From positions 62,001-126,000 of the forward strand of contig CADBAY010000004.1 of assembly GCA_902792815.1 (NCBI GenBank): a DNA stretch of 64,000 bases. Direction: 5' to 3'. This DNA comes from an uncultured Bacteroidia bacterium (GTDB lineage: Bacteria; Bacteroidota; Bacteroidia; Bacteroidales; UBA932). Below are positions 32,809 to 38,024 of the stretch, one piece after another. A program made the translations under genes and the position numbers. Positions within the stretch are counted from its first letter, which is position 1; every line of letters starts with the position of its first letter. The notes below the pieces were generated by a model that did not search any database, was not told the DNA's origin, and saw only the letters and a list, made by a program, of their open reading frames with translations.

Positions 32809-33648
32809 TTATCTCACTACCTGGGTGAATTCGGGAGCCTGTCCCTCAAGGACGTTGACGTAAACTTTGAACTCGCGTCCCGGCTGCTGGGGCACTCCCT
32901 CCCTGGGGAGGTCGACAGCGGTAAACAGATACTCGGTACCGCCGGGAACGGGGCGGGAGCTCACTTCCGACGCCTTGGCATGAATCATCGGGTAATCGCC
33001 CACGGCAGCATCGAAAATTGCCGATTCTTCATCGCTCACGGCATGCTGCCCGGAGAATTCTTCCTGGGGCTCGCAGTCTCCTTCGACGAAACCGCCCTCC
33101 TTGAGGAAGCGGTCGATCTCCTGAGGAGCGGCCTCAAGCCTTGCTGCACGCACGCCATAGCCCGGCAGAATCTCGGCGTCCGGGAATTTGGCCGCGAGAT
33201 CCCTCGAGCTGGAAGCAAGCCCGCCGCTGCCGAAGGTGCAGAAAGGAACTACCTTCTTGCCGTTCAGGTCTATGCTGTCCAGGAGAGATGCCACCGGGAG
33301 AGCATAGGTTCCGAACCACACCGGGTAGCCGAGGAAGATAATATCGTACGAGGCGATGTCGCTGCTGATTGGATTAACCTCAGGCAGAACTCCAAGCTCG
33401 CGCTCCTTGACGCTGCGCTCGATAACCTCCTGATATGAGCCTCCGTAAGGCTCTGCGGGAAGAATCGCCTCTATGTCGGCCCCGAGCCTCGTTGCAAATT
33501 CTTCTGCAACAGCCTTGGTGTTTGACGACTGGGAATAATAGAGCACCAATACCTTGGGCGCCTTTGTCTTGCTGCCGCACGAAGCAGCCCCGATGATGAT
33601 TGCCACAAGCGGCAGAATCCATCTGAAAGCCTTTGCTAATCTGGTCAT
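32809..33648 (-). CDS. Flavodoxin-domain lipoprotein
   Basis: A 279-residue protein; the ATG at 33648 gives a lipoprotein signal MTRLAKAFRWILPLVAIIIG with lipobox AASC. Residues about 30-180 are a long-chain flavodoxin-like fold: LVLYYSQSSNTKAVAEEF is the FMN phosphate loop, and FLGYPVWFGTYALPV and CTFGSGGLASSSRDL are the isoalloxazine loops. The C-terminal 70 residues are a separate beta-rich extension (VPGGTEYLFTAVDLPREG). An exported flavodoxin is unusual, although Bacteroidetes have several. It may reduce periplasmic redox partners. Confidence 0.87.
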   Translation of the reverse strand: MTRLAKAFRWILPLVAIIIGAASCGSKTKAPKVLVLYYSQSSNTKAVAEEFATRLGADIEAILPAEPYGGSYQEVIERSVKERELGVLPEVNPISSDIASYDIIFLGYPVWFGTYALPVASLLDSIDLNGKKVVPFCTFGSGGLASSSRDLAAKFPDAEILPGYGVRAARLEAAPQEIDRFLKEGGFVEGDCEPQEEFSGQHAVSDEESAIFDAAVGDYPMIHAKASEVSSRPVPGGTEYLFTAVDLPREGVPQQPGREFKVYVNVLEGQAPEFTQVVR

Positions 33649-33731
33649 AATAATCTCTGCTGAATCAAACTGTCCAGCAAAGATAAACAATGCTGACAAA
33701 TAATCGCACCCCCTGCATCACTTTCCCCGCC

Positions 33732-33981
33732 GTAGCTCTTCGCGTCGCCTTTTGCAGTAGTTTTTCGCACCGCCTCCTGCCGTAGCTTTTTGTGCGGCCT
33801 CCCGCAGTAGCTTTTTGTGCTGCCTCCTGCCGTAGCTCTTCGCGTCACCTCCTGCCGTAGCTTTTCGCGCCGCCTTCTGCAGTAGTTTTTCGCGCCGCCT
33901 CCTGCCGTAGCTCTTCGCGTCACCTCCTGCCGTAGCTCTTCGCGTCGCCTTCTGCAGTCGTTTTTCGCACCGCCTCCTGCC
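33732..33981. repeat. Ten 25-bp direct repeats beginning GTAG
   Basis: Ten head-to-tail units of exactly 25 bp start at 33732 and run to 33981. The consensus is GTAGCTCTTCGCG, then TCRCCTCCTGCM. Nine units begin GTAG and the last GTCG. Units 5 and 8 are identical, and units 5-6-7 resemble 8-9-10, hinting at a 75-bp higher-order step. There are no spacers, so it is not CRISPR. It is close to the 51-bp array and the HUH transposase, but is a different sequence. Confidence 0.9.
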
Positions 33982-34084: not shown

Positions 34085-34992
34085 ATTGTACAAGCTCTAT
34101 CGGGCCTCAGAACAGCAAAGTTAGGCCCAAGTTCCGACAAACCAGCCTCTGCCGGCCCGGAACCGTCCGAATCGGGCCCGGCACCGGGCAAACCAGCCTC
34201 TGCCGGCCCAGAAACAGCAGAATCAGGCCCGACGCTGGGCAAACCCACCTTCACTGGCCCGAAAACAGCAGAATCAGGCCCGACGCTGGGCAAACCAGCC
34301 TCCGCCGGCCCGGAAACGGCAGAATCAGGCCTGGCGCCGGGCAAACCCACCTTCACTGGCCCGGAACCGACCGAATCAGGCCAGACGCCGGGCAAACTCG
34401 CCATTGCCGGCCCGGAACCGTCCGAATCAGGCCCGGCACCGGGCAAACCAGCCTCCGACGGCCCAGAAACCGTCCGAATCAGGCCAGACGCTGGGCAAAC
34501 CCACCTTCACTGGCCCGAAAACAGCAGAATCAGGCCCGACGCTGGGCAAACTCGCCATTGCCGGCCCGGAACCGTCCGAATCAGGCCCGACGCGGGGCAA
34601 ACCAGCCTCCGCTGGCCCGAAAACAGCAGAATCAGGCCCGACGCTGGGCAAACCCACCTTCACTGGCCCGGAACCGACCGAATCAGGCCAGACGCCGGGC
34701 AACCCTGCCTCCTCCGGCCCAGAAACGGCAGAATCGGGCCCGACGCTGGGTGAACCAAGTTCTGTCGGCCCGGAGACGGCAGAATTAGGCCCGGCACTGT
34801 GCAAACCCACCTTCACTGGCCCGAAAACAGCAGAATCAGGCCCGGCACTGGGCAAACCCACCTTCACTGGCCCGGAATCGGCAGAATCAGGCCCGACACA
34901 TGGCAAACTCGTCATCGCCGGCCCGGAAACGGCAGAATAAGGCCAGACGCCGGACAAACTCGCCATTGCCGGCCCGGAACCGTCAGAATTGA
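34085..34992. repeat. Left array of 51-bp tandem repeats (about 17 units)
   Basis: The marker GGGCAAAC recurs every 51 bp from 34186 (34186, 34237, 34288, 34339, 34390, 34441), then after one 52-bp unit at 34493, then every 51 bp to 34952; a degenerate unit starts at 34135 and partial sequence at 34085. Each unit has a variable first half (CAAACCAGCCTCYGCYGG, CAAACCCACCTTCACTGG, CAAACTCGCCATTGCCGG or TGAACCAAGYTCTGTCGG) and one of two second halves (AACCGTCCGAATCAGGCC or AAACRGCAGAATCAGGCC). Many units can fold as CCGGG-CAAA-CCAGC-CTCC-GCTGG-CCCGG, a hairpin with a bulge. The 1-bp insertion near 34465 shows that reading frames through it are not maintained. Confidence 0.92.
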
Positions 34993-34995
34993 ACG

Positions 34996-35919
34996 CTAAT
35001 ATCGTTTTGGAAATAGCGAGTCTACAACTGACGGCTCCAACCTCAGCATCCTCAGAATCTGCTTGTTACTGGCGTGATACTCGTTGTGTAACAGGATTGC
35101 CAGATCCTTTTTTGCTGTAGCTGGCAGTAATGATGGTTTAAGCCCCCCGAACTTGTCCTTGCTTATTGCGAGAACAACCCCGAATAGTTCATCGTCTGTA
35201 TAAAACACTTGCTCCCCAATCTCTTCAGCAATCTCTTTTTGCGTTTCAATGTTTCGGGATAATTCTCTGAAATAGTGCGAGGCGCACCTAAACAATTCCT
35301 CTCCAAATTCTATGCAGCAAAACCCCATGGGACAAGCGTATCCGTCGACCTTAACGATAGGATGCGCAAGTTTGTCAGCGTCATGGCTATGAATAAAGGC
35401 TCTCCTTTCTGGTTTGGTCAGAGTCGCGTCTGATTCCCGGAACCTCGCCTTGGCTGAATAATTGAAATAATAAGTATTAGCGCCCCACTGGTATGTGAAC
35501 GGGGTTGTGTCGGGACTTACAATGTATCCATTCCTGTTAATGTAGGTGATAACATTCCTCAGTTCTTGAAGCGAGCTTATCTGCCGGATGTTAGCCTCAA
35601 AGGAAGACAAATCTATTGTGTACCCCCTGCTCTTCAAATATCTGCTAAGTGATCTTTTGAAAAGTTTAAAAAGACGTAAAGCCGCCTCTTTGAGCCCCGA
35701 AATGGCAAGATGAAGGTGATTACTCATCAGCTCAAAAGTAATAACTTTAGCTTCGGGTACCAGACGAGAGCAGATGGCAAGAATATTCATTCCTGCAATG
35801 AATGCATCTTTGTCAGGGAAAATCACTTGATAGTTTTCCGGGGTCCACAGGTGCCAATACGGGCCGGAATTACTGAAAGTCAAAGAGCATTTGCTCTCCA
35901 TTTCGGAATAAGAAATCAT
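34996..35919 (-). CDS. HUH (Y1) transposase, REP-associated type
   Basis: A 307-residue single-strand transposase of the IS200/REP-associated tyrosine family. MSNHLHLAISG carries the HUH pair, and LRNVITYINRNGYI contains the probable catalytic tyrosine (family form YIxxNP). The C-terminal 45 residues (KKDLAILLHNEYHASNKQIL and on) look like a DnaA-type helix-turn-helix. The body is visibly more AT-rich than its neighbours, which suggests transfer. It reads against the orientation of the two flanking 51-bp arrays and its stop lies only a few bases from the left array. No partner TnpB or terminal IS structure was seen. TACATTTG at 35950-35957 is a likely -7 box. Confidence 0.85.
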   Translation of the reverse strand: MISYSEMESKCSLTFSNSGPYWHLWTPENYQVIFPDKDAFIAGMNILAICSRLVPEAKVITFELMSNHLHLAISGLKEAALRLFKLFKRSLSRYLKSRGYTIDLSSFEANIRQISSLQELRNVITYINRNGYIVSPDTTPFTYQWGANTYYFNYSAKARFRESDATLTKPERRAFIHSHDADKLAHPIVKVDGYACPMGFCCIEFGEELFRCASHYFRELSRNIETQKEIAEEIGEQVFYTDDELFGVVLAISKDKFGGLKPSLLPATAKKDLAILLHNEYHASNKQILRMLRLEPSVVDSLFPKRY

Positions 35920-35979
35920 AGTTTAAGTCGCGGGATTAGACCCGGCAGTCAAATGTAGTAAAAAACTATCAAAGTCTCA

Positions 35980-36004
35980 GGCCTCATAGCAATATTTTGA
36001 GGCC
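35980..36004. repeat. 7-bp inverted repeat upstream of the transposase
   Basis: GGCCTCA at 35980-35986 and TGAGGCC at 35998-36004 flank 11 AT-rich bases. It sits about 60 bases upstream of the transposase start and next to the right repeat array, in an intergenic stretch that otherwise shows only the -7 box. It may be an operator or an element end. Confidence 0.4.
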
Positions 36005-36011
36005 AATTGTC

Positions 36012-36350
36012 AACTTTCTGATTGCTTTAGGCCCGTGTAGCGGTATAATCAGGCCCGATGCCGGGCAAACCAGCCTCCGCTGGCCCGGGACCGTCCGAAT
36101 TAGGCCCGATGCCGGGCAAACTCGCCTCCGCTGGCCCGGAACCGTCCGAATCAGGCCTGACGCTGGGCAAACCCACCTTCACGGGCCCGGAACCGTCCGA
36201 ATCAGGCCCGACGCAGGGCAAACTCGCCTCCGCTGGCCCGGAAACAGCAGAATCGGGCCCGACGCAGGGCAAACTCGCCTCTGCCGGCCCGGAACCGTCC
36301 GAATCAGGCCCGACGCGGGGTGAACCAAGCTCTGTCGGCCCGGAAACGGC
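36012..36350. repeat. Right array of 51-bp tandem repeats (6 units)
   Basis: The same units as on the left side, in the same orientation: GGGCAAAC markers at 36063, 36114, 36165, 36216, 36267 and the TGAACCAAG-type unit at 36318, with a partial unit before the first. Exact unit types are shared with the left array, including the TGAACC type, which occurs once in each. Confidence 0.92.

Positions 36351-36407: not shown

Positions 36408-38024
<1,617 letters not shown>

Follow-up and report, generated by a model that had tools for sequence, protein, structure and literature searches.

A RAYT-like transposase gene nested in a tandem array of 51-bp hairpin repeats, and the array pitch shared by its relatives

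The transposase locus

We have analysed a stretch of 64,000 nucleotides (hereafter the window) from an uncultured Bacteroidia bacterium of the lineage UBA932 (assembly GCA_902792815.1, contig CADBAY010000004.1, positions 62,001 to 126,000). The host is a gut-type bacterium, and in the window a gene for a transposase resembling the REP-associated tyrosine transposases (RAYT; REP, repetitive extragenic palindrome) is nested inside a tandem array of hairpin repeats. Arrays of nearly the same pitch recur beside relatives of this gene, with units of differing sequence. The locus comprises the following features, in window coordinates.

34102..34152, plus strand: degenerate outermost left unit, in phase and with a GGCC-type hairpin, not among the covariance-model matches
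34153..34969, plus strand: left array, 16 units of 51 bp (one of 52), then a partial unit to about 34989 (Tandem Repeats Finder (TRF), covariance model)
34996..35919, minus strand: RAYT-like Y1/HUH transposase, 307 amino acids (open reading frame, family alignment, AlphaFold, Foldseek)
35542..35544, minus strand: candidate catalytic tyrosine Y126 (Y-x-N-R-N), the same in all 24 aligned relatives, its role being assigned from the family
35710..35721, minus strand: HUH motif N67-H68-L69-H70, none of N67, H68 and H70 varying among the 24 aligned relatives
35920..36028, minus strand: gap from the start codon to the upstream array, with a promoter-like stretch, a small hairpin near the start and an outlying hairpin at about 35979-36003 (by eye, five related loci)
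36029..36335, plus strand: right array, 6 units (TRF, covariance model)

The array is made up of 22 units, all 51 bp long except for one or two of 52 bp, in a single orientation, 16 to the left of the gene and 6 to the right. TRF delimited the left array at 34138-34989 (period 51, 16.7 copies) and the right one at 36047-36320 (period 51, 5.4 copies), and a covariance model of the unit gave 22 matches in the own genome, all on the plus strand and all at the window locus, with 150 of the 1458 first-look candidates scored, so that absence elsewhere is to be read at that sensitivity. A first-pass annotation, made from the sequence alone, had counted about 17 and 6 units in one orientation with the transposase reading the other way, and both statements stand with slightly different numbers, the coding sequence lying on the minus strand and the units on the plus strand. 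The further claim that the units are in phase holds in general; the phase is broken at the 52-bp unit at 34459-34510 and at the first right-hand match, also of 52 bp. The modular build that had been described (four first-half types combined with two second-half types) is visible by eye in the unit alignment as about four spacer types and two apical types.

The hairpin proposed at the time for many units, CCGGG-CAAA-CCAGC-CTCC-GCTGG-CCCGG, was rejected as a conserved structure: its exact sequence occurs once in the array, the inner stem CCAGC/GCTGG is complete in only 2 of the 23 units tested, and several further units form the outer stem only. Instead, all 23 units contain GGCC-N15..19-GGCC, a hairpin with a short stem and of the type seen in related loci, and the narrower pattern GGCC-N16..18-GGCC has 8 copies outside the window array as well. 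A folding energy of -5 or lower was reached by the GGCC-type hairpin in 11 of the 23 units and by the previously quoted one in 6.

The enzyme and its clade

By its motifs and predicted fold, the product of the gene is a Y1/HUH transposase, as had been supposed. HxH and Y-x-[N/H]-R-N are present in 88 of 88 fetched clade members (duplicates included), the best AlphaFold model has a mean pLDDT (predicted local distance difference test) of 85.3, with the five models spanning 59.7-85.3, and the best PDB matches by Foldseek are IS608 TnpA, ISDra2 TnpA and the RAYT structure 4er8 (probability 0.98-1.00, E 0.01-0.03). The window enzyme falls below the cut-off of Pfam Y1_Tnp (14 bits vs 23), a model for which E<=0.01 is reached by 4 of 24 clade members. 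None of the NCBIfam models matches it, the RAYT model NF047646 being unmatched at E<=0.01; clade members L002, L003, L031 and L046 are likewise unmatched by NF047646 at E<=0.1, and the distant paralogues L004-L007 match it at 23-35 bits (cut-off 80).

The own genome encodes eight homologues including the window enzyme, the best of the others being 45% identical to it. Five distant paralogues (L004-L008, on contigs C6, C3, C6, C3 and C9) have adjoining hairpins, which are similar on both sides of L006, L007 and L008 and include a pair with a spacing of 52 nt at L005. A profile of 24 relatives matched 221 of 398 genomes of the own family at E<=1e-30, distant paralogues included, and 3 of 393 genomes at the order level, all of the own genus; of 296 genomes at the phylum level, the own genome alone matched at E<=1e-20 (5 or 7 candidates scored per genome in these searches). 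Within the sampled genomes, the clade thus appears confined to the bacterial family of its host. Spread by plasmids or phages was considered and discarded, as no match was found in the plasmid or phage collection at E<=0.001; a single relative of the transposase, L257, was located at one end of a contig catalogued as viral (IMGVR_UViG_3300020112_002877).

For comparison we fetched 80 of the best-scoring places, along with the window and seven further loci (G1036:C100 and G1045:C26 were passed over), so weaker members of the clade are not represented. Counts over 83 loci omit L014, L015, L016 and L019, which are the same places as L067, L074, L085 and L097, and L062, a near copy of L063, and retain near-identical pairs such as L072/L076 and L118/L122. 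Counts of array clusters and copy numbers also omit the upstream array of L104 (period 58) and the downstream array of L079 (2 kb from the gene). Judged by their non-synonymous (dN) and synonymous (dS) substitutions, the sibling enzymes close enough to be measured are under purifying selection: dN is 0.005 and dS 0.121 for L108/L110, 0.065 and 0.912 for L067/L074, and 0.007 and 0.048 for L118/L122.

A common pitch with differing units

TRF was applied to the flanks of the transposase genes, and arrays of period 45-58 were counted. The 58 arrays obtained have a period of 51 in 51 cases, 52 in four, 50 in two and 58 in one; removal of four duplicates and two outliers left 52 arrays at 35 loci, so that tandem arrays adjoin the gene at 35 of the 83 loci. 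A set of 17 loci can be chosen whose pairwise unit scores are all below 20, a score reached by 1.4% of shuffles, and the period there is 51 in 14, 52 in two and 50 in one. Single linkage of units at score 28, which 0 of 6000 shuffles reached, gave 29 clusters, with period 51 in 25, 52 in three and 50 in one. Since a pitch of 50-52 nt is kept without above-chance similarity of the units, something seems to hold the length while the sequence turns over.

The same spacing is found independently of TRF. By autocorrelation, 69 of 163 flanks have their best period at 51 and a further 18 at 102, and of the 101 flanks lacking a strong array 36 still have 51 as the best. Hairpin centres lie 51 nt apart in 122 pairs (0.6 in shuffles), many of these pairs coming from long arrays. 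A strict scan found two hairpins 50-52 nt apart in 37 of 163 transposase flanks, as against one of the 58 flanks of pckA and one of the 123 intergenic segments taken from the own genome, and the sole positive intergenic segment lies just downstream of a distant paralogue. That differing hairpins occur at a shared spacing of 51 bases points to a tie between this spacing and the enzyme family.

Hairpins private to each enzyme

Among 89 loci, 56 have hairpins on both sides of the gene, and in 39 of these at least four 6-mers are common to the upstream and downstream hairpins, whereas hairpin sequence is shared in 7.7% of comparisons between loci. The link between enzyme and array drawn in the first-pass annotation is therefore beyond chance, recurring as it does at the same pitch with differing units. 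In 17 loci the hairpin has the form of a 6-bp stem (one mismatch allowed), AAA, N10, TTT and the complementary stem. With one hairpin taken per locus, 96.7% of cells in this set pair, a figure that is partly built in because the set was chosen for pairing; with slid stem partners at most 56% pair. Double-changed cells number 39 (12.4 in shuffles), and for covariation the score is 0.664 (0.152 in shuffles), with 0 of 500 shuffles as high in either case; six pairs show a double change (5.0 in shuffles, 113 of 500 as high) and there are 14 further pair types (10.7 in shuffles, 13 of 500 as high). Loop lengths of 8 to 10 are frequent, and none of 12 to 14 was found. Of the 66 loci with a downstream hairpin, 17 have the first one centred 15-25 nt past the stop codon.

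Sibling units away from their enzymes

Besides the window enzyme, the own genome encodes two sibling enzymes with arrays, of units that we call R2 (second transposase, locus L108) and R3 (third transposase). Covariance-model searches of the own genome, in which scoring covered 150 of over 1100 first-look candidates for each of the three units, gave 47 matches to R2, seven of them at its own locus, and 31 to R3, 18 at its own locus and 13 dispersed. The dispersed R2 matches lie on contigs C7 (two places), C5, C14, C10 and C1, with no transposase there, and step by 51 bp apart from inserts; two weak matches lie on C6 at a 51-bp array. Dispersed groups of R3 on C1, C19 and C3 have steps of 51 or 52. 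None of the dispersed places is near any of the eight transposase homologues, the nearest (on C6) being about 11-12 kb away, which fits a REP/RAYT type of action in trans. The question raised in the first-pass annotation, whether arrays occur only beside the transposase gene, is answered in the negative by these two families, which have copies and arrays elsewhere in the genome. Arrays without a transposase, named there as evidence against a link, do exist at single loci for R2 and R3, but not at the level of genomes for R2: in 151 genomes of the genus, with part of the first-look candidates scored, R2 had 41 matches in the own genome, 28 in the genome G991 and one lone match in G1085, and the R2-cognate enzyme was found at >=99% in the own genome and G991 only (next best 64%).

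Change in unit number

Variation in copy number, which had been raised for strains, was found between two species: orthologous arrays of the own genome and G991 differ in unit number in six of six comparisons. Upstream of the second transposase there are two units in the own genome and four in G991, a difference of exactly 102 bp, with the outermost and innermost units conserved; downstream there are five units with an insert of about 180 bp as against seven. The other arrays have 3 vs 5 units, 4 vs 8 (with an insert), 4 vs 3 (the array in G991 continuing into a truncated gene), and 12 with an insert vs 2. At one place in G991 (L244:4093-4160) an R2 array runs straight into the downstream gene, as a result of either a deletion beside the array or an assembly fault. 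Also of note is a 183-bp segment found in the own genome between R2 units at L250:8312-8494 and in L237 and L233, with half of it beside the array in L235; it occurs in one G991 array (L246) as well and had no other match in the DNA stretches searched. It is possibly cargo moved with array units.

The site, empty and occupied

Two genes anchor the site on either side.

32809..33699, minus strand: flavodoxin-like gene, left neighbour (Pfam Flavodoxin_4)
36408..38024, minus strand: pckA, right neighbour (NCBIfam/TIGR00224)

In G991 (L212) the two genes adjoin, with 174 nt between the matched parts as against 2.7 kb in the window, and neither transposase nor array lies between them. Nucleotide homology between the window and L212 stops at 33726 and resumes at 36408. 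A second tandem array (33729-33981; period 25 bp, 10 copies, 75-bp superperiod) starts where this homology stops, and no further copy of it was found in the DNA stretches searched.

Four related loci share one or both neighbours. In L067 the transposase is placed as in the window, with pckA on one side and the flavodoxin gene on the other; it lies downstream of pckA in L085; next to the flavodoxin gene in L074, where the other side is off the contig; and next to pckA in L082, inverted together with the genes beyond. TRF counted 5.4 copies upstream and 16.7 downstream of the gene in the window, none and 2.0 in L067, 4.8 (at the contig edge) and 2.1 in L074, 7.2 and 6.5 in L082, and none and 2.5 in L085; further single hairpins can be seen in the sequences beyond the TRF arrays. 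The upstream gap of about 100 nt contains, in five related loci and by eye, a promoter-like stretch, a candidate promoter (35920..36028 in the window). A small hairpin, CGGG...CCCG, is also seen by eye just before the start codon at 35920-35960 and in L067, L074, L082 and L085, where translational control is possible.

Interpretation

Comparison between loci and genomes establishes the association, the pitch, the hairpin geometry, the dispersal, the change in unit number and the selection on sibling enzymes, and we consider it probable that the locus is a REP/RAYT-like system, in which the gene sits within a head-to-tail ladder of its own hairpin units whose pitch is linked to the enzyme. Several observations weigh against this reading. 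The Foldseek E-values are weak, none being 0.001 or better, and the window enzyme is saturated at silent sites against L067. The stems of the window-unit hairpin are weak, and the covariance-model search, at the sensitivity given above, found no dispersed copy of the window unit in the own genome. The tetranucleotide foot GT[AG]G stands at 5 of 217 hairpins, with about 10 expected by chance. No TRF array was found at 48 of the 83 loci, 11 having two to three copies and 24 three or more, and the strict scan found a pair on at least one side in only 33 of 89 loci and on both sides in 10. Some dispersed R3 copies are single or, in a group on C14, 48 bp apart, and the R2-positive genomes are close relatives, so that they count as one or two events. 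The unit numbers in the two species come from draft assemblies, in which tandem arrays may be collapsed, and slippage or unequal crossing-over would also yield gain and loss of units. Finally, single linkage at score 20 joins nearly all units into 3 clusters, perhaps partly via the shared hairpin core; as units link up at looser thresholds, there is room for a shared ancestral repeat.

How a REP/RAYT-like enzyme might act on such a ladder can be outlined. It would bind each hairpin on an exposed single strand, in a strand-specific manner, and cut at a fixed place in the spacer, and by joining of the cut ends an array would shed or acquire one or several 51-nt units, or seed them at other places. 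The geometry of a nucleoprotein complex would then be what keeps the pitch constant, for example an enzyme dimer holding two hairpins. The sibling units R2 and R3 would have spread in this way; for the window unit no other copy was found. The analogy has its basis in the in vitro activity of TnpA_REP/REP pairs (PMC8266576). We put forward tentatively that the enzyme writes its arrays, i.e. that it measures and moves 51-nt single strands and builds its own substrate ladder both in cis and in trans. If so, unit sequence would drift freely while the hairpin and the length are kept.

Another possible explanation is that the arrays follow ordinary minisatellite dynamics: replication slippage or unequal recombination would lengthen and shorten these hairpin-prone repeats, the part of the enzyme would be limited to seeding or dispersing units, and the 51-nt pitch would go back to a single ancestral pair of repeats. 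Slippage is the main rival for the expansion step. Unit-number change requires no enzyme. Block repeats are typical of recombination, and they are present both in the window, where a 153-bp period outscores 51 in TRF, and in L125 (a 102-nt superunit); the linking of units from different loci at loose thresholds also agrees with this explanation. However, the pitch stays at 50-52 nt even in the sets of loci without above-chance unit similarity, and on the enzyme tree 19 changes are needed for the 24 loci with three or more copies, at least 16 of them forced by supported branches, against a shuffled mean of 21.0. High-copy loci are thus scattered over the tree roughly as at random, and expansion or loss recurs. 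On balance, we regard an explanation by minisatellite dynamics as rather unlikely.

That the transposase simply landed in a pre-existing array, an alternative left standing in the first-pass annotation, would account for a gene lying inside the array and reading against it, but it is very improbable, because the enzyme-array link recurs in relatives at one pitch with differing unit sequences; it also fits poorly with the unit-number differences, with hairpins private to each enzyme on both sides of the gene, and with an empty site that holds neither gene nor array. Moreover, when 40 stretches totalling 794,659 of the 2,370,477 bases of the own genome were scanned with TRF (score >=80), three arrays of period 50-53 came out: the second transposase's own array (L194), one of a relative of its unit with no transposase (L184) and one beside an R3 match (L177:10332). 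A coding repeat of 17 codons, in a gene for a repetitive protein that an insertion had split, was rejected as scarcely credible: frames are open through parts of the array on both strands, as would be expected of any stop-free repeat with a period divisible by three, but sister arrays have periods of 52 and 50, and the 52-bp unit at 34459-34510 breaks the frame within the window array itself.

Comparison with known systems

With the IS200/IS605 elements IS608 and ISDra2 the locus shares the predicted catalytic fold and a gene bordered by hairpins, whereas recent near-identical copies are lacking, the seven other homologues being at most 45% identical to the window enzyme. Integron attC arrays, in which folded single-strand recombination sites are repeated in one orientation, offer a functional likeness only and are served by a different enzyme class. 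Folding of attC is mentioned in PMC8266576.

It is already known that RAYTs are flanked by REPs and that ordered tandem REP/REPIN clusters exist in Pseudomonas fluorescens SBW25, with one beside each of three RAYT genes (PMC3116915). The earlier remark that no description of an amplified substrate was known therefore needs qualifying, since such clusters partly adjoin RAYTs; searches of an open-access library brought up no description of 51-nt hairpin arrays with a RAYT, nor of any clade in which hairpin families of differing sequence have a single tandem pitch in common. The repeated modules in SBW25 have a greater length, with REPs spaced by 112 and 72 bp in one type, the REPIN clusters include flanking DNA, and no pitch common to differing unit families is described in the passages of PMC3116915 consulted. 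The nearest described group is subclass 2.6 (RAYT group 5), found mostly in Bacteroidetes, with atypical hairpins without GT[AG]G beside the gene and copies elsewhere (PMC6006769). Its hairpins are atypical like ours, but its tyrosine motif is YIH[QN]NP, as against Yx[N/H]RNx in 24 of 24 clade members here, and the word 'tandem' appears nowhere in the text of PMC6006769.

As in REP/RAYT systems (TnpA_REP, 'REPtron'; features compared from PMC8266576 and PMC6006769), the gene of a single-tyrosine HUH enzyme is bordered by hairpins, hairpins of the same family occur elsewhere in the genome (here for two sibling units), and enzyme and hairpin change together; unlike them, the clade is without the GT[AG]G foot, and its YxNRN differs from the tyrosine motifs of the class-2 subclasses in PMC6006769. 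Three TnpA_REP/REP pairs have been assayed in vitro for activity on single-stranded REP (PMC8266576), and the mechanisms by which REP hairpins disseminate are called poorly understood in the same source. The clade described here is a natural set in this respect, combining differing hairpin families at one spacing with dispersed arrays, an empty site and varying unit number. It gives a testable prediction, a 51-nt ruler, and supplies cognate pairs of enzyme and substrate in which the joint change of a single-strand transposase and its hairpin can be studied.

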